The translations under genes and the position numbers were made by a program. This document shows, piece after piece, positions 1,327 through 12,837 of a stretch of DNA of 64,000 nucleotides. The notes below the pieces were generated by a model. The model was not told where the DNA came from, searched no databases, and was given only the letters and a program-made list of their open reading frames with translations. The DNA is taken from the NCBI GenBank assembly GCA_023663945.1, contig JAMPGL010000009.1, forward strand, positions 22,783 through 86,782, read 5' to 3'. Numbering within the stretch: position 1 is the stretch's first letter; each line of letters starts with the position of its first letter. This DNA comes from Lachnospiraceae bacterium. GTDB lineage: Bacteria; Bacillota; Clostridia; Lachnospirales; Lachnospiraceae.

Positions 1327-2205
1327 ATGAGACTTGGAGCATTGGAAGCAGGCGGGACAAAGATGGTGTGTGCAATTGGAGACGATGCGGGGAAGATTTT
1401 TGAACAGATTTCCATCCCCACCAGAACTCCGGCGGATACGATTCCGGAGATAATCGCTTATTTTCAGCAGGCGCGGATTGAGGCGCTGGGAATCGGCTGC
1501 TTTGGACCGATTGACCCGGACAAGCGTTCGGCGACTTATGGATATATCACCAGCACGCCCAAGCTGGCGTGGGCGGATTACCCGATTGTGGGAGAGTTTG
1601 AAAAGGCGTTAAATTGTCCGGTGGGCTTTGACACGGATGTAAACGGCTCCGTGCTGGGAGAGGTCACCTTCGGGCAGGCAAAAGGAAAGACTTGTGTGGT
1701 TTACGTGACCATCGGAACCGGCGTGGGTGCGGGAATCTATGTGGAAGGGAAGCTTCTTCACGGGATGCTTCATCCGGAAGCCGGACATGTGATGGTCAGG
1801 AGGCGTGAGGGCGATGATTATCCCGGGAAATGCCCTTACCACAAGAGCTGTCTGGAAGGGATGGCGGCAGGTCCGGCAGTGGAGGAGCGCTGGGGCAGAA
1901 AAGCCGTTGATTTAAAAGACCGGAGGGAAGTTTGGGATTTGGAAGCGTATTATATTGCACAGGCACTGACAGGATATGTGTTGACGCTTTCGCCGGAGAT
2001 GATTATTTTGGGCGGAGGAATCATGCATCAGGAACAGCTCTTCCCTATGATACGCGGCTATGTGAAGGAGATGCTCAACGGCTACATTCAGACGGAAGAG
2101 TTGAATCACATGGAGCAATATATTGTGCCTGCAAGTCTAAATGACGATCAGGGAATCATGGGAGCATTGGAATTGGGAAGAAGGGCATTAGCGGAAAGCA
2201 GATAA
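1327..2205 (+). CDS. ROK family sugar kinase, fructokinase-like
   Basis: The N-terminus has the ROK phosphate-binding pattern (LEAGGTKMVCAIG), and the middle has a second glycine-rich ATP site (VYVTIGTGVGAGIYV). The ROK zinc-binding region follows, with HPEAGH then a CPYHKSCLEG cysteine cluster. The C-terminal LGGGI motif is also present. The length (292 aa) and the start resemble Bacillus fructokinases of the YdhR/GmuE type, which phosphorylate fructose or mannose. An AGAAGGAGAAGC ribosome-binding site precedes the ATG. The gene lies between a phosphatase and a ribosomal GTPase on the same strand, so no sugar transporter context refines the substrate. Confidence 0.87.
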   Translation: MRLGALEAGGTKMVCAIGDDAGKIFEQISIPTRTPADTIPEIIAYFQQARIEALGIGCFGPIDPDKRSATYGYITSTPKLAWADYPIVGEFEKALNCPVGFDTDVNGSVLGEVTFGQAKGKTCVVYVTIGTGVGAGIYVEGKLLHGMLHPEAGHVMVRRREGDDYPGKCPYHKSCLEGMAAGPAVEERWGRKAVDLKDRREVWDLEAYYIAQALTGYVLTLSPEMIILGGGIMHQEQLFPMIRGYVKEMLNGYIQTEELNHMEQYIVPASLNDDQGIMGALELGRRALAESR

Positions 2206-2250
2206 GAGTTTTTGGGGAGAACCGCATGAGAATGCCGGATGGGGATTAGG

Positions 2251-4953
2251 ATGAAGAGACTTGCAGTAGGGATTTTGGCGCATGTGGACGCAGGAAAAAC
2301 CACATTATCGGAGGCAATGCTCTATGCCTGCGGCAGTATCCGCAGGCTGGGCAGGGTGGATAAAAAAGATGCTTTTTTGGATCATGACGCGCAGGAGCGG
2401 GAAAGAGGAATCACCATTTTTTCCAAACAGGCAAGGATGACCGTAAAGGATCTTCAGATTACGCTGTTAGATACTCCGGGACATGTTGACTTCAGCGCGG
2501 AAATGGAACGCACGCTGCAGATTTTAGATTATGCAATTCTGGTAGTCAGTGGATGTGACGGCGTACAGGGGCATACTTACACTCTTTGGAAGCTGCTTGG
2601 GCGTTATCGGATACCGGTATTTGTCTTTGTGAATAAAATGGACCGTGTGCAGACTGAGCGGAGGGAACTGCTTTCACAGCTCCGCACAAAGTTAGGAGAG
2701 GGTTTTGTGGATTTTTCGGGGGAGGATGAGCAGGAATTTTATGAGGAGACTGCGGTCTGTAAGGAAGAGCTTCTGGATGAATTTTTGCAGAAAGGAACAA
2801 TAGCACCGGAGAATATCAGAAAGGGTATCAGGGAAAGAAAAATCTTTCCCTGCTTTTTTGGCTCTGCCTTAAAGCTTACCGGAGTGCAGGAATTTTTGAA
2901 TGGGATGTTCCGGTACACGGAGGAACCGTCTTATCCGCCCGAATTTGGAGCAAGGGTGTTTAAGATCACAAGAGACGCTCAGGGGAACAGGCTTACGCAC
3001 TTAAAGATAACCGGCGGAGCTTTAAGAGCAAGAGATGTGGTCAGCGGCATGACCAGAGACGAAAAGGAAAAGGATGGTCAGGAAAAGCGGCAGGAAAAGG
3101 TGAATCAAATTCGCCTTTATTCCGGAGAAAAGTATGAGACGGCGGAGGAAGCTCAGGCGGGCGAAGTCTGTGCAGTGACCGGCTTATCCTGCACCTGGTC
3201 CGGAGAAGGGCTGGGAGCGGAGGAAAGGATTTATTATCCGCTGTTAGAGCCGGTGCTTGGCTACCGGATTCTTTTGCCGGAGGGTTGTGATCCGGCGCAG
3301 ATGCTTCCCAAACTGCGGATGCTGGAGGAAGAGGAGCCTCAGCTTCATATTTTGTGGGATGAGCGGAATAAGGAAATCAAAGCAAAGGTTATGGGGCCGG
3401 TTCAGACAGAGATTCTGCGAACCATGATCAAAGAACGTTTTGAGACCTGCGTGGAGTTCGGAGAAGGGTCGATTATTTATAAAGAAACCATCGGAGACCG
3501 GGTGGAGGGTGTGGGGCATTTCGAGCCTCTCCGCCACTATGCGGAGGTTCACCTTTTGCTGGAACCGGGAGAGCCGGGGAGCGGAGTGCGCATTGGCTCG
3601 TCATGCAGTCTGGATCTTTTGGATCGGAACTGGCAGCGCCTGGTCCTTACCCATCTGGAAGAGCGGGAGCATGTAGGAGTGCTGACCGGTTCAGCGATTA
3701 CGGATATTAAGATTACGCTGACGGCAGGGCGGGCGCACCAAAAGCATACGGAGGGCGGGGATTTCCGGCAGGCGGTCTACCGGGCGCTGCGGCAGGGATT
3801 GATGCAGGCGCACAGCGTTCTTTTGGAGCCTTGGTACGAATTTCGGCTGGAAGTGCCGGTCAGTCTGGTGGGACGGGCGATGAATGATCTGGAAAAATAC
3901 GGAGCGCGGTTTGAGCTGGAAGGGCAGAGTGAAGAACTGGCGGTTTTAACCGGGGAAGCGCCGGTCTCCAAGATGCAGGAATATCCCAAGGAGGTGGCGG
4001 CATATACAGGGGGAACCGGAAGGCTGTCCTGTACCATGAAAGGTTATTTTCCCTGCCACAATACCGACGAAGTGATAGAACAGATTTCTTATGACCCGCT
4101 GCGTGATTTGGAAAATCCGGCGTCGTCGGTGTTTTGTGCCCACGGGGCAGGATTTGTGGTGGAATGGGATCAGGTGCCTGCTTACATGCATCTGGAAAGC
4201 ACACTGAAGACGGATGATATAGAGCCGGAGGAGCAATGGGAGGCAGAGCGCGGAGAGGGACGGGATTTGGGAATCCGTCCTCAAGGAATCCGTCCGCAGG
4301 GAGTCCAGGCCGAAAGGGAAAGAGATGCCGGAGAGAAGGAGCCCCGGCTGGGGCTTGATGAAATCGATGAGATTTTATTACGGACCTCTCACGCAAACCG
4401 GAAGGAGAGCAGGACTGCCGGAAGAGAGGGATGGAAGCGTACAAGACCCCGGCAGGGAGCCGCAGCGCAGGCGGAGAGCAGGGTTTACAAGCCTCAGCCG
4501 GTAAAAGAAAGGTATCTTCTGGTAGACGGCTATAATATTATATTTGCATGGCAGGAGCTGAAGGAGCTTGCGCAGATTAATTTGGACGGGGCAAGAGGAA
4601 AGCTTTTGGATATTCTGTGCAATTATCAGGCAATCCGCAAGTGCAATTTAATTGTGGTGTTCGATGCCTACCGGCTTGCAGGACATCCCACGGAGGTTCT
4701 GGAATATCACAATATTCATGTGGTTTACACCAAGGAGGCGGAGACTGCGGACCGTTATATTGAGCGGTTTGCCCATGAGAACGGAAAGAAGTATAATGTG
4801 ACGGTGGCAACCTCTGACGGGCTGGAACAGATTATTATCCGGGGAGAAGGATGCGCGCTTTTGTCCGCCAAGGATCTCTGGGAAGAAATCAAGCTGGCAG
4901 AGCAGAATCTTAGGGAAGATTATGAGAATTACCAGCGGTCCCAGAAAAGATAA
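2251..4953 (+). CDS. TetM-like ribosomal GTPase fused to a C-terminal Rae1/YacP-type NYN nuclease domain
   Basis: Residues 1-660 have the architecture of EF-G-like ribosomal protection proteins. The G motifs AHVDAGKTT, RGIT, DTPGH and NKMD are all visible, followed by the later EF-G domains. A charged linker with a short repeated GIRPQ unit follows at about 665-745. Residues about 752-890 form a second domain starting YLLVDGYNII and containing VVFDAYR, TADRYIE and VATSDG. These conserved acidic positions match YacP/Rae1 NYN nucleases; Rae1 of Bacillus subtilis cleaves mRNA on the ribosome. I prefer the ATG at 2251 because GGGG lies six bases upstream and TetM-type proteins begin here; an in-frame ATG exists at 2239. 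Whether it gives tetracycline resistance is unknown. Its last 25 bases overlap the convergent gene. Confidence 0.88.
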   Translation: MKRLAVGILAHVDAGKTTLSEAMLYACGSIRRLGRVDKKDAFLDHDAQERERGITIFSKQARMTVKDLQITLLDTPGHVDFSAEMERTLQILDYAILVVSGCDGVQGHTYTLWKLLGRYRIPVFVFVNKMDRVQTERRELLSQLRTKLGEGFVDFSGEDEQEFYEETAVCKEELLDEFLQKGTIAPENIRKGIRERKIFPCFFGSALKLTGVQEFLNGMFRYTEEPSYPPEFGARVFKITRDAQGNRLTHLKITGGALRARDVVSGMTRDEKEKDGQEKRQEKVNQIRLYSGEKYETAEEAQAGEVCAVTGLSCTWSGEGLGAEERIYYPLLEPVLGYRILLPEGCDPAQMLPKLRMLEEEEPQLHILWDERNKEIKAKVMGPVQTEILRTMIKERFETCVEFGEGSIIYKETIGDRVEGVGHFEPLRHYAEVHLLLEPGEPGSGVRIGSSCSLDLLDRNWQRLVLTHLEEREHVGVLTGSAITDIKITLTAGRAHQKHTEGGDFRQAVYRALRQGLMQAHSVLLEPWYEFRLEVPVSLVGRAMNDLEKYGARFELEGQSEELAVLTGEAPVSKMQEYPKEVAAYTGGTGRLSCTMKGYFPCHNTDEVIEQISYDPLRDLENPASSVFCAHGAGFVVEWDQVPAYMHLESTLKTDDIEPEEQWEAERGEGRDLGIRPQGIRPQGVQAERERDAGEKEPRLGLDEIDEILLRTSHANRKESRTAGREGWKRTRPRQGAAAQAESRVYKPQPVKERYLLVDGYNIIFAWQELKELAQINLDGARGKLLDILCNYQAIRKCNLIVVFDAYRLAGHPTEVLEYHNIHVVYTKEAETADRYIERFAHENGKKYNVTVATSDGLEQIIIRGEGCALLSAKDLWEEIKLAEQNLREDYENYQRSQKR

Positions 4954-9211: not shown

Positions 9212-9670
9212 ATGTACAAGGAGATGGAAGGTATGACGAATGAAGAAATGTTTTCAGCTATTATAAGCCATATGGATTCTATGGAATCAAGGCTGAATGA
9301 ACGGATGGATAATCTGGAATTGGAGCTGACGGAAAGAATGGACAACCTGGAGTCGAGATTGAATGCTCGGCTGGATAGTCTGGAATCAAGAATGGACAAT
9401 CTGGAATCAAGAATGGACAGTCTGGAGTCAAGAATGGACAGTCTGGAATCAAGGCTGGATGCTTTGGAATCAGACATGGATATGGAATTTAAAGCAGTGC
9501 GGACAGAAATGGATATGGTATATAAAACTTTAAAGAAAGATATTTCCATTTTGGATGAGAAGGTTAACCGGCTCATGTATACAAAAGACGTTGACGGCTA
9601 TGAAAAAATGAAAACACAGGTAGAATTACTGACAAAGGGGTATCAGGAGCTGAAGGCAAAGATTGGTTAA
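9212..9670 (+). CDS. Coiled-coil protein with tandem heptad repeats
   Basis: This 152-residue protein consists mostly of heptads of the type ESRMDSL, encoded by near-identical 21-base units. The repeat section (residues about 30-88) should form one long, highly acidic coiled coil and probably oligomerises. There is no signal peptide or membrane segment, so it is likely cytoplasmic. GAGAGG precedes the ATG at 9212; an in-frame ATG at 9233 with its own GGAGATGGAAGG is an alternative. I do not recognise the family, and no function is proposed. Confidence 0.7.
   Translation: MYKEMEGMTNEEMFSAIISHMDSMESRLNERMDNLELELTERMDNLESRLNARLDSLESRMDNLESRMDSLESRMDSLESRLDALESDMDMEFKAVRTEMDMVYKTLKKDISILDEKVNRLMYTKDVDGYEKMKTQVELLTKGYQELKAKIG
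9342..9473 (+). repeat. 21-bp tandem repeat encoding coiled-coil heptads
   Basis: About six imperfect 21-base units, each coding for one heptad of the ESRxDxL type. Unit length equals one heptad, so copy-number change would keep both frame and coiled-coil register. Confidence 0.8.
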
Positions 9671-9801: not shown

Positions 9802-9830
9802 TCCGTGAAATTTTCACGGATGGGTTTTTA
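9802..9830 (+). terminator. Inverted repeat with T-rich tail, terminator or leader attenuator
   Basis: TCCGTGAAA, a single central T and TTTCACGGA form a perfect stem, followed by TGGGTTTTTA. It lies downstream of both the coiled-coil gene and the promoter at 9710. It could therefore end the upstream transcript or attenuate the surface-protein transcript. Confidence 0.55.
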
Positions 9831-9889
9831 TGTTTAAAAACAAAACTGCCGGATTAAAATCTGCCGGCAAGGAAATCAATGGAGGAATC

Positions 9890-11839
9890 ATGAGGAAAAG
9901 AATTTCTAAGCTTAAGAGGGCTTTATTAAAAAGGGAAACAGGGAAAAGATTTGTCGGGCTGATGCTGTTGATTGCTTTATTATCTGCATCAGCAGGAACA
10001 ATTATGCCGGTGCATGGAGAAGAGCTGCACCCGAGAACCGTTGTCACTGAAATTTATCACAAACATATAGGAAATCCAAATGAGAAGGGGGGATGTTACC
10101 AACAGGAAATTCCCCATATCCATCAGGGAAGCGAGCAGGAAGGCGGAAGCTGTTATCAGAATCAAATCGAGCATGTACATCAGGGGGACGAGGCTTCTGG
10201 TACAGGCTGTTATTCCAAGGTCATTTATCACACGCATGCAGGTGACGGACAAAGTGAAGAAGGATGTTATAAGGCAGTTTACCACATTCACGAGGAAAGC
10301 TGTTACAAGAATAAGATTTGCACCATCCGCTACACCAAAGGAGAAGTGATCGGGACGGAAATGAAGGAGTGCATAGCTCACGGGCAGGCGCTTCATGAGA
10401 AGGCGGAAGGAGTCGGAACCCATGTGAATTGTAGCATTGGGGAGGAAGACGTTCATCTGGAATACTGTAAGGAATGCGGCATCATGACATACAGTTACCA
10501 TGATTATCAAGAGCTGGCATGCGGTAAAAGCACGGAAGCGGCGGAAGAGTATGTGCCTGCCTGCGGAAAGGATGAGACTACAGCAGAGGGCTACGAGACC
10601 GGATGCGGGCTGGAACAGGGGAGCGTGGAACGTTATGAGCTTTCCTGCAGTCAGAAAGTGGAAGGTTATGCGCGAAACTGTGAATTGGACGAAAAAACGC
10701 CTTTGGGAAAAATGATTGTCACCAATGAAACAGAGGGAAACAGCGAAAAGGTTACGCTCAGCGTGCGGATAGAAGACTTGTCAGGAGGAAAGCTTTTGCC
10801 GGAGGAACCGCCTTTTATCTGGCGCGATGAGACTGGAAAGCAAATCGGAAGCGGCGAGCAGATTGAGGTGGATAAAAATGGGAATTATACGGTAGAGGTG
10901 CGTCTGCGGAACCGGGATGTGGATGAGGACAGCTTAAAAAGCGGCATTACCATTGATAATGTACTTTTAAAGGAAAATGCATCTCCCTCCCCGGAAGATC
11001 AAAAATCACCATCGCCTGCAGTTTCCGAAACTCCGGATTCCGGGAAACCATCGCCTGAGGCCTCCCCAACTCCGGATTCCGGAGATCCAACGCCTACAGC
11101 AAATCCAAGCTCTACGGAGGAACCAAGTTCCACGAAGGAACCAAGTTCTACAGAGGAACCAAGTCCTGCGGAAGAACCAAGCTCTGCGGAAGACCCGGAA
11201 CCGACGCAGGAACCGTCCGAAGGAGAAATCCTTCCGCAAAAGACTCCGTCGCCACAGCCTGTTTTGCCTGCGGATAATGGGGAAGCAGGCAGTGTTGGAG
11301 GCGGAGAACACAGGGCTTTAGAAGTAAAGAAAGCAGACGGCTCCGGCGGACAGGCTCCATCCGCAGCCCCTCAATCGAAGGGACAAAAACAAAATCCGGA
11401 AATAAAGAAGGAGACGGAAAAGAAGGAGATAGAGAAAAATATGACACAACCGTCAGAAACAGTGGAAGTAAAAAACCTTAGCTTTTGGCAAAGAGTATTT
11501 GCAAATCCCAAAGTGAAAATTTTTTCCATTGCGGCAGGCGTGCTGATACTTTTATCGGGGCTCTTCTTCCTATTGCTTTATCTTCTGAAAAGTGTGCGGG
11601 TTTATAATGATGACGGGCAAGGCAGGTTTGTAAGATTAGGACGCGCCCGCGTCTGCCGGGAGGAGGAAGGATACACGGTGACCATATCCGAGCAGATGGA
11701 GGAAAAGGCGTATACAAACCGCTATTGCATAAAGCCGGGATTGTTCCGGTTAGGAAAGAATCAGCAGGAGATTTTGGTGTATAAAGATACCAAGAGGGTT
11801 TCGGTGGAATTAAACAGGGAAATGATATTTATTATCTAA
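9890..11839 (+). CDS. Large secreted, membrane-anchored His/Cys-rich surface protein
   Basis: The 649-residue protein has a signal peptide (residues about 1-43, ending near VHGEE). A repeated region at 50-150 follows, with units of the form CY...HxH (for example GGCYQQEIPHIHQG, SGTGCYSKVIYHTHAG). A further cysteine-rich section runs to about 265. Then come a predicted beta domain, a Pro/Ser/Thr/Glu linker with EEPSS repeats, and one C-terminal transmembrane helix near residue 545 with a cytoplasmic tail of about 80 residues. Similar GGCY/HxH repeats occur in other gut Clostridia surface proteins of unknown role. Regular Cys and His suggest metal binding or disulfides, which is inference. GGAGG precedes the ATG at 9890. 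Confidence 0.78.
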   Translation: MRKRISKLKRALLKRETGKRFVGLMLLIALLSASAGTIMPVHGEELHPRTVVTEIYHKHIGNPNEKGGCYQQEIPHIHQGSEQEGGSCYQNQIEHVHQGDEASGTGCYSKVIYHTHAGDGQSEEGCYKAVYHIHEESCYKNKICTIRYTKGEVIGTEMKECIAHGQALHEKAEGVGTHVNCSIGEEDVHLEYCKECGIMTYSYHDYQELACGKSTEAAEEYVPACGKDETTAEGYETGCGLEQGSVERYELSCSQKVEGYARNCELDEKTPLGKMIVTNETEGNSEKVTLSVRIEDLSGGKLLPEEPPFIWRDETGKQIGSGEQIEVDKNGNYTVEVRLRNRDVDEDSLKSGITIDNVLLKENASPSPEDQKSPSPAVSETPDSGKPSPEASPTPDSGDPTPTANPSSTEEPSSTKEPSSTEEPSPAEEPSSAEDPEPTQEPSEGEILPQKTPSPQPVLPADNGEAGSVGGGEHRALEVKKADGSGGQAPSAAPQSKGQKQNPEIKKETEKKEIEKNMTQPSETVEVKNLSFWQRVFANPKVKIFSIAAGVLILLSGLFFLLLYLLKSVRVYNDDGQGRFVRLGRARVCREEEGYTVTISEQMEEKAYTNRYCIKPGLFRLGKNQQEILVYKDTKRVSVELNREMIFII

Positions 11840-11908: not shown

Positions 11909-11922
11909 TAAGGAGGATGATT

Positions 11923-12837
11923 ATGAAAAAGTTTTTAGCGGTTTTATCAGCAACAGTGATGACCATGAGCCTTTTAACCGCCTGTGGCGGCAGTGGCGCG
12001 GCTCCGGCAGAGGCAGAGACACAGGAGGCGGCAGCGCCCGAAGCGGAGGCAGAGACACAGGAGGCGGCAGCGCCCGAAGCGGAGGCAGAGACACAGGAGG
12101 CGGCAGCGCCCGAAGCAGAAGCAGAGACAGCGCCTGAGACAGACGCAGCGGGTTCAGCGGCGCTTGCAGACGGAGTTCTTACTGTAGGAACTAATGCAGA
12201 ATTTCCGCCTTTTGAGTATGTGGGCGACGATGGGGAGCCGGACGGATTTGATGTGGCTCTTATCAAAGCAATCGGCGAAAAGCTGGGGGTAACCGTGGAG
12301 GTTGAAAACATGGAGTTTGACTCTCTGGTAGCTTCCATCGGAAACAAAATTGATGTGGCAATTGCAGGCATGACGGTGACTGATGAGCGGAAAAATTCCG
12401 TAGACTTTTCCAATTCTTATTATGATGCGGTTCAGTATGTGATTGTTCCGGAAGGGTCAGAGATTGCTGCTTTTGACGATCTTGCAGGAAAGGCAATCGG
12501 CGTTCAGCTTGGAACCACCGGCGACTTCATTGCAAGTGATGATGTGGAAGGAGCTTCTGTTTCTCAGTATAACAAGGCGGTTGACGCTGTGAACGATTTG
12601 ATCAATGGAAGAGTAGATTGTGTTATTATTGATAAGAATCCGGCATTGGTGTTTGAATCTAAATTTTCCGGTCAGGTAAAAGCAATTGACGGTGCGCAGT
12701 TTGATTTTGGTGTGGAGAATTACGCAATTGCACTTCCTAAGGGAGACGCAGTGCTGGCTGACCAGATTAATCAGGCGCTGGAAGAGCTGAAAGCAGACGG
12801 AACCTTCGATAAGCTTGTTGAAGAGTATATCGGTTAG
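11923..12837 (+). CDS. Polar amino acid ABC transporter, substrate-binding lipoprotein
   Basis: The protein (304 aa) has a lipoprotein signal with lipobox LTAC. A low-complexity linker made of a 12-residue EAETQEAAAPEA-type unit repeated three and a half times follows. Next is a family-3 solute-binding domain beginning LTVGTNAEFPPFEYVGDDG, which has the usual GFDVALIKAIGEKLG and GMTVTDERKNSVDFSNSY motifs. It binds an amino acid outside the membrane and delivers it to the permease encoded downstream. The start at 11923 is set by AGGAGG at 11911-11916; the ATG at 11917 is too close. A hairpin follows before the permease gene, which would allow more binding protein than permease. Confidence 0.92.
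   Translation: MKKFLAVLSATVMTMSLLTACGGSGAAPAEAETQEAAAPEAEAETQEAAAPEAEAETQEAAAPEAEAETAPETDAAGSAALADGVLTVGTNAEFPPFEYVGDDGEPDGFDVALIKAIGEKLGVTVEVENMEFDSLVASIGNKIDVAIAGMTVTDERKNSVDFSNSYYDAVQYVIVPEGSEIAAFDDLAGKAIGVQLGTTGDFIASDDVEGASVSQYNKAVDAVNDLINGRVDCVIIDKNPALVFESKFSGQVKAIDGAQFDFGVENYAIALPKGDAVLADQINQALEELKADGTFDKLVEEYIG
12010..12130 (+). repeat. 36-bp tandem repeat in the binding-protein linker
   Basis: Three 36-base copies (12010-12045, 12046-12081, 12082-12117), the third differing in its last base, and a partial fourth. They encode the acidic, alanine-rich linker between the lipid anchor and the binding domain. Confidence 0.9.

Follow-up and report, generated by a model that had tools for sequence, protein, structure and literature searches.

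With GTP, elongation factor G (EF-G)-like factors position their domain IV at the decoding centre. A fusion of a related GTPase with a nuclease was reported in 2015, and Rae1, the nuclease with which it is compared here, is said to have been described only afterwards, in a 2017 paper. The available passages of Atkinson et al. (2015) list Tet proteins with a YacP-like NYN ribonuclease (RNase) domain from ten clostridiales species and propose a possible role in antibiotic resistance (PMC4342817). Rae1, or YacP, of Bacillus subtilis is an A-site endoribonuclease, and its access may rise on stalling, according to the accessible part of PMC6613710. A gene with the architecture of 2015, a Tet-like GTPase with a C-terminal YacP-like NYN domain, lies in the window, which is the whole 64,000-nucleotide stretch analysed here, from contig JAMPGL010000009.1 of a Lachnospiraceae bacterium. 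Judged by its sequence and distribution, this fusion appears to be the Rae1 of the organism, moved to the C-terminal end of an EF-G-like GTPase. As the fusion was already in print (PMC4342817), the novelty lies in this reinterpretation and not in the architecture; section 9 of Atkinson et al. (2015), in its accessible form, is without the Rae1 replacement, the clade position, the co-loss, and the linker motif described below. A second report of the fusion was not found in the literature covered, mostly titles and the beginnings of abstracts, and an earlier mention is possible, for example in Condon et al. (2018) on the distribution of Rae1.

Within the window, a single open frame spans positions 2239–4953 of the forward strand without interruption. 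The ATG at 2251 lies roughly where the alignment of the relatives begins, and a GGGG stands 7–10 bases upstream of it. In the resulting protein of 900 residues, Pfam places a G domain, domain II, a weak domain III, domains IV and V, a linker, and NYN_YacP in this order (Table 1). The initial annotation, made from the same DNA, had claimed a frame of this length with EF-G-type GTPase motifs and a C-terminal YacP/Rae1 NYN domain, and both halves were recovered. GTP_EFTU and EF-G_D2 (29.4 bits, cut-off 27) scored above their cut-offs, as did EFG_IV and EFG_C; EFG_III reached only 18.9 bits and stayed under its cut-off of 27, and the G-domain motifs AHVDAGKTT, RGIT, DTPGHVDF, NKMD, and GSAL are conserved.

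The C-terminal domain matches NYN_YacP (PF05991) over residues 756–898 with 167.6 bits against a cut-off of 24.6, and the solved YacP entries 5MQ8 and 5MQ9 with an E-value of 1e-21 over 133 residues, which bears out its proposed link to Rae1. Four aspartates (D759, D805, D834, and D856; codons at 4525, 4663, 4750, and 4816), which we take to be the catalytic residues, are all kept in 136/136 fusions and 20/20 standalone copies; this count covers 136 of 137 fusions, locus L169 being dropped by the pattern, and it includes some near-identical proteins and overlapping named and unnamed collections (e.g., L073 and L144). The acidic residues pointed out in the initial annotation are thus conserved in homologues. 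Like Rae1/YacP of B. subtilis, the fusion has the NYN domain, the four acidic positions, and nearly always one copy per genome; unlike it, the fused NYN domain sits behind an EF-G-like GTPase and away from the rlmB site.

A further difference concerns the C-terminus. The NYN domain of the window is short there, with 149 residues counted from six before VDGYN, and lacks the tail of the standalone type. A length of at least 160 residues is reached by 20/20 standalone copies and 82/136 fusions, and 38/136 fusions stay below 150. Two patterns for detecting the tail, which fitted 5/137 fused and 5/20 standalone copies, and 27/136 and 7/20, respectively, were dropped in favour of length. If Rae1 is 170 residues long, its R166 presumably lies in the C-terminal tail. 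In the accessible part of PMC6613710, the missense change R166P of B. subtilis Rae1 is grouped with loss-of-function changes. Because of this grouping and the short tail in the window, the GTPase may have taken over the role of the Rae1 tail.

Next to the nuclease, the GTPase half was compared with known families. Among curated models tet_protect fits the window's GTPase best, and the nearest solved structures are TetO and TetM. On NF012153, the equivalog model for tetracycline ribosomal protection, the fusion scores 390.7 bits and fails the cut-off of 775, as does the fusion L066 with 425.2 bits, whereas a Tet(M) control passes with 879.8; two other Tet-like rows, L211 (453) and L200 (602), are also under this cut-off. 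With 281.4 bits against 659.4 on the EF-G equivalog TIGR00484, it is by score not EF-G either. It shares with Tet(M), Tet(O), and Tet(W) the EF-G-like domain order, apart from the weak domain III, and about 30% identity across 600 residues, and differs by an HxKHTEGGDF tip in place of SPV, an extra SVFCAHGAGF element, the linker, and the NYN domain. The NPxxSVFCAHGAGFxVxWDxVxxYMH element is common to fused and unfused GTPases of this kind and absent from the aligned Tet and EF-G rows. The unfused sister GTPases (651–674 amino acids) have the same domain IV tip and C-terminal element as the fusions, and they stop at about residue 655, without linker and NYN domain; ten full-length ones were found by search, with 714–792 bits against a fusion-derived profile.

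The tip of domain IV reads AHxKHTEGGDFRQA in the fusions and YYSPVSTPADFR in Tet(M/O/W). The SPV residues of this loop presumably reach the drug site in Tet proteins. They occur in 3/3 Tet(M/O/W), 0/50 fusions, and 0/11 unfused orthologs; since the other Tet-like rows also have 0/8, their lack alone is insufficient to exclude protection. HTxGGD-like tips were seen in 48/50 fusions (one reads HTEPPD) and in 11/11 unfused orthologs. In a quick tree of 79 GTPases, with 50 chosen fusions and with Tet(M), Tet(O), and Tet(W) but not Tet(Q) or Otr(A) as named resistance proteins, fused and unfused members group together in one clade that excludes Tet(M/O/W) and the Tet-like rows, with 99 in the Shimodaira–Hasegawa-like approximate likelihood ratio test (SH-aLRT). 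Tree and scores suggest that the GTPase is probably a sister of the tetracycline ribosomal-protection proteins and not one of them. The label TetM-like, used in the initial annotation, therefore holds for the overall architecture and not for the lineage, a sister clade of its own with unfused members as well.

This comparison bears on the suggestion that the fusion is a tetracycline ribosomal-protection protein that gains a new mechanism of resistance through its RNase domain. It was made by Atkinson et al. (2015) in the available passages of PMC4342817, and tet_protect as top curated model and TetO and TetM as closest structures speak for it. In RefSeq, one fusion is called "translation factor GTPase family protein" and another, WP_306784676.1, "TetM/TetW/TetO/TetS family". 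Against it stand the failed NF012153 cut-off (yet L211 and L200 fail too), the separate clade, the missing SPV tip (though missing in other Tet-like rows as well), a core-like distribution in the family, and the fact that the fusion holds the organism's only NYN_YacP. Tetracycline resistance was judged very unlikely on these grounds of cut-off, tree, tip loop, and distribution, in line with the earlier view that the role is something other than simple tetracycline protection. The own genome (94% complete) has a sole other EFG_IV match, L032 on contig 45 of G000, which is a divergent EF-G-like protein with GHGGCGKTS and without RGIT. Canonical EF-G was not found in this genome, perhaps due to an assembly gap.

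A scan of genome contigs yielded 364 relatives, of which 80 were kept as named loci (L034–L113). Their sources are Lachnospiraceae, Faecalibacterium, Gemmiger, Ruminococcus, Flavonifractor, and further Clostridia, and in every one of the 80 the match starts no later than residue 30 and reaches at least residue 877. Among 150 sampled genomes of the window's family, NYN_YacP is present in 135, and its frame has 848 residues or more in 119 of them and is shorter in 16; the GTPase part was directly viewed in 26 of the 119 (loci among L002–L031), and the others are classed by frame length. Nine of the 16 short frames appear to be truly standalone (G059, G024, G099, G007, G020, G016, G054, G029, and G068), five seem to be fusions split by a frameshift or contig end (G095, G042, G098, G140, and G006), in G128 the NYN domain lies at a contig end and no GTPase was found, and the remaining one, in G135, is rearranged. 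Stop codons inside some matched stretches (e.g., G031, G094, and G086) are perhaps reads beyond the C-terminus. These numbers suggest that the fusion is core-like within the family.

The fusion is also usually the only gene of its kind in a genome. It is the single NYN_YacP match in the own genome, and a second NYN above the cut-off is missing in 118/119 family genomes with a long frame, the exception being a contig-end fragment in G039. Two matches each were seen in this genome, in G076, where one of them stays under the cut-off, and in G130, where both are pieces of one frame. In a broader sample of 398 genomes of the phylum, 219 have an NYN domain (215 above cut-off), mostly in short frames among the rows listed. 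The GTPase clade was found in 34 of these genomes with at least 731 bits, 28 fused and six unfused, and is set off by a clear gap, as the next scores are 534, then about 460, and then EF-G2-like proteins near 370. Each of the 28 fused genomes has a single NYN.

Standalone yacP has a preferred place in the genome, and the fused genomes are devoid of it there. In 17 of the 20 standalone loci, rlmB directly precedes yacP, in 15 cysS and mrnC are present too, and in 12 a sigma gene follows within 300 bases; the annotated order in Clostridioides difficile is cysS, an RNase III-domain gene, thyX, rlmB, NYN, and sigH. Among 30 fused genomes searched with RlmB, none has yacP beside rlmB, as judged from about 1.5 kb on each side (0.7 kb downstream in L240). 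Those of the same family have retained cysS-mrnC-rlmB (24/24), with a sigma gene within 300 bases after rlmB in 18/24, and such a sigma gene is also found in 5/6 fused genomes outside the family. The window's own genome (L238) has no yacP at rlmB and belongs to the six that lack the adjacent sigma gene. Thus, yacP most likely left its ancestral place for the end of the GTPase. Domains, orthology, and replacement can be read directly from these data.

The ancestral neighbourhood could also hint at a different substrate, with the NYN domain acting in ribosomal RNA (rRNA) or transfer RNA (tRNA) maturation, the GTPase serving as an assembly factor, and messenger RNA (mRNA) not being the target. 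The neighbours include rlmB, which encodes a 23S rRNA methyltransferase, and the RNase III-domain gene, which we assume to act in 23S maturation. However, the Rae1 substrates described in the available literature passages are translated mRNAs, and this is the least probable of the explanations considered, even though NYN/YacP was first proposed for rRNA and tRNA maturation, as cited in the accessible part of PMC4342817.

Between the two halves lies a linker of 67–138 residues (median 80, pattern-based cut in 135 fusions). The initial annotation had mentioned that it contains a repeat. This repeat is real and small, with a 15-base unit present 2.5 times at 4270–4306, and since most relatives have gaps in that stretch it is not a defining feature. 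What recurs instead is a motif in the form ELxxIFxRTYG or EIDxIIxxTxxAN, found by a strict pattern in 92/135 and by a looser one in 101/135 fusions (rows L168 and L169 were dropped by pattern); in many linkers that fail both patterns, a variant can still be made out by eye. At least 90% of 49 aligned proteins retain E704, I708, and T712. The motif is the fusion's own, because the unfused GTPases stop near residue 655 and no more than about 50 residues precede the NYN core in the standalone frames. The linker is thus not empty, as a motif recurs within an otherwise variable sequence. Identity to L034, the nearest relative, is highest for the NYN domain (92%), followed by the GTPase (83%) and the linker (58%). 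Nonsynonymous (dN) and synonymous (dS) divergence from L034 amount to 0.107 and 1.63 for the GTPase and to 0.047 and 1.09 for the NYN domain, and the linker has a dN of 0.33 with dS not computable. Both ends are under purifying selection.

Losses and separations of the two halves were also compared. The 15 family genomes without NYN are all without the GTPase, several of them being incomplete (G146, 68%; G137, 81%; G030, 86%). An unfused GTPase is present in 5/9 carriers of a standalone NYN versus 0/15 genomes without NYN (Fisher p 0.003, relatedness ignored, and omitting the seven split, contig-edge, or rearranged genomes G095, G042, G098, G140, G006, G135, and G128). G461 and G506 carry unfused GTPases without any NYN. 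In G135 (L209, 1058–3100, minus strand), an intact frame of 680 amino acids has the G domain, domain II, the linker motif, and the NYN domain, and no match to domains IV–V.

The main rival to a joint mechanism is that the GTPase is a mere ribosome tether or co-expression partner, in which case the two activities would be independent, the local Rae1 concentration would be higher, and GTP would gate nothing. The fast-evolving linker would fit such a role, as would the loss of domains IV–V in G135, the GTPases of G461 and G506, and the fact that standalone Rae1 works in B. subtilis according to the available literature. It is less easily reconciled with a linker that is not free sequence, with the strong conservation of the GTPase motifs and of the domain IV tip, and with the GTPase being gone as well in the NYN-less family genomes, and is considered rather unlikely.

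The trees fit a single origin of the fusion. In the GTPase tree, two state changes are needed for fused versus unfused members, and the simplest reading would be one NYN gain and one loss, the latter in a Ligilactobacillus plasmid copy; no starred branch forces the nesting of this copy among the fusions. This copy, L216 (4001–5920), is a GTPase without NYN on a 275-kb plasmid of Ligilactobacillus salivarius, stands among the fusions in the tree, lies near an IS1380 transposase, and is named "TetM/TetW/TetO/TetS family" (tetracycline resistance) in RefSeq. The NYN tree, with 57 fused and 20 standalone NYN domains, also needs two changes, since two fused groups are separated, with modest support, by the standalone copies of the family. 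A single clade of fused NYN domains is not rejected (approximately unbiased test, p-AU 0.26).

The best reading of the fusion, held at about even confidence, is a Rae1 that is tethered to the ribosome, gated by GTP, and cleaves mRNA where ribosomes pause; ribosome binding, GTP gating, and A-site cleavage are predicted here from sequence comparison. The initial annotation had likewise put forward, as an inference, a factor that senses or clears stalled ribosomes before cutting the mRNA. In the manner of EF-G, Tet, and related factors, the GTP-bound body would recognise ribosomes whose A site is empty or paused, and it would place the tip of domain IV at the decoding centre. GTP hydrolysis would then withdraw domain IV, and the linker-tethered NYN domain would enter and cut the mRNA in the A site or next to it, as lone Rae1 does in B. 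subtilis. Tethered delivery licensed by GTP would thereby substitute for unaided diffusion of Rae1, and the cut messages would leave a non-stop ribosome for transfer-messenger RNA (tmRNA) or another rescue pathway. A more specific version is put forward only tentatively, namely a sensor of stalled ribosomes in which the Tet-like domain IV probes the A site, GTP is hydrolysed, and the site is handed to the tethered Rae1. The fusion would then be a no-go-decay factor in one polypeptide that does the work of both a rescue GTPase and a nuclease, and the linker motif would serve as a switch or docking site.

Several points weigh against a GTP-gated Rae1. As domain IV and Rae1 compete for one A site, a two-step hand-over has to be assumed. 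Rae1 of B. subtilis functions without a fused GTPase, as stated in the accessible part of PMC6613710. At least one lineage can do without the full GTPase body, as G135 has a fusion without domains IV–V. Leaving the rlmB site is not unique to the fusion, since the standalone yacP of G059, G020, and G433 is also located away from rlmB. G007, G020, and G016 (G020 67% and G016 87% complete) have a standalone NYN and no GTPase of the clade. In the phylum sample, four of the six carriers of an unfused GTPase have an NYN domain versus 183 of 364 other genomes, which is no enrichment (hand count).

The order of events might also be reversed, so that the GTPase first splits or removes ribosomes that have stalled or collided and the NYN domain then clears the mRNA of its own or a neighbouring ribosome, possibly with a cut outside the A site. 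All sequence data are compatible with this, and EF-G participates in recycling, according to the accessible part of PMC4342817. Still, none of the neighbouring genes is conserved, and Rae1, the nearest characterised nuclease, is described as an A-site enzyme in the available part of PMC6613710; rescue as the first step is therefore regarded as improbable.

If the GTP-gated Rae1 is true, A-site mRNA cleavage would be GTPase-controlled in many gut commensals (Lachnospiraceae, Faecalibacterium, Gemmiger, Ruminococcus, and Flavonifractor relatives), and Rae1 would gain a partner that reveals how paused ribosomes get recognised. The fusion makes it testable what licenses the entry of Rae1 into the ribosome. 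It would also follow that some gut records named as tetracycline resistance, such as WP_306784676.1, may stand for housekeeping factors of RNA decay, a point of relevance to resistance surveys.

Table 1. Positions of the fusion gene, its parts, and the upstream open reading frame in the window.
Feature	Position	Strand	Description
Fusion gene	2251..4953	+	900 amino acids; alternative start ATG 2239 gives 904 amino acids; aligned with 80 relatives (L034–L113)
G domain	2260..2919	+	Residues 4–223; Pfam GTP_EFTU E 2e-53
Domains II and III	2944..3462	+	Residues 232–404; domain III weak, under Pfam cut-off
Domain IV	3469..3810	+	Residues 407–520; EFG_IV E 5e-17; tip loop AHQKHTEGGDFRQA, where Tet(M/O/W) have YYSPVSTPADFR
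Domain V	3817..4062	+	Residues 523–604; Pfam EFG_C E 4e-15
C-terminal element of the clade	4063..4200	+	Residues 605–650; NPxxSVFCAHGAGFxVxWDxVxxYMH
Linker, low conservation	4201..4512	+	Residues 651–754; contains 15-base repeat at 4270–4306
Recurring linker motif	4360..4386	+	Residues 704–712, EIDEILLRT; in relatives ELxxIFxRTYG
NYN_YacP (Rae1-type) nuclease domain	4516..4944	+	Residues 756–898; Pfam E 3e-49
Upstream open reading frame, ROK-family sugar kinase judged by motifs	1327..2205	+	Ends 45 bases before the fusion ATG

The ROK-like upstream frame lies on the same strand as the fusion gene, and the two are possibly co-transcribed. Among flanking open reading frames of at least 110 amino acids at the 80 named loci, no neighbour family was found in more than six loci. 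As no neighbour gene is conserved in the relatives, the operon clue was dropped.

Other origins and roles of the gene were considered as well. A mobile or plasmid gene was rejected, as 2 of 1320 matching plasmid records cover 80% of the query at one place. Two records with the fusion, one of 517 kb from Monoglobus and one of 251 kb from Agathobacter, appear to be chromosome-like. Near full-length matches, over 97% and 99%, were seen in two faecal "Bacteriophage sp." contigs that are flagged UNVERIFIED and lack annotation, L249 (MT835563.1) and L250 (MT835514.1); they are possibly bacterial DNA and were not counted as phage carriage. No PADLOC model of a defence system matched. For the NYN domain, 12 Clostridioides records filed as plasmids match, of which a C. 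difficile record (L251, NZ_CP149721.1) was examined. It carries cysS-rlmB-NYN-sigH-tuf-rplK and therefore seems to be a piece of chromosome.

Three further open reading frames on the forward strand of the window were noted. The first (9212–9670, 152 amino acids) contains the seven-residue repeats MDNLESR and MDSLESR and is likely a coiled coil. The second (9830–11839, 669 amino acids) encodes a putative surface protein in which His/Cys-rich repeats (CYQ..IPHIHQG) occur together with a hydrophobic segment and a long stretch rich in Pro, Ser, Thr, and Glu. The third (11917–12837) resembles an amino-acid-binding lipoprotein and has a repeated EAETQEAAAPEA stretch behind a lipobox-like start.

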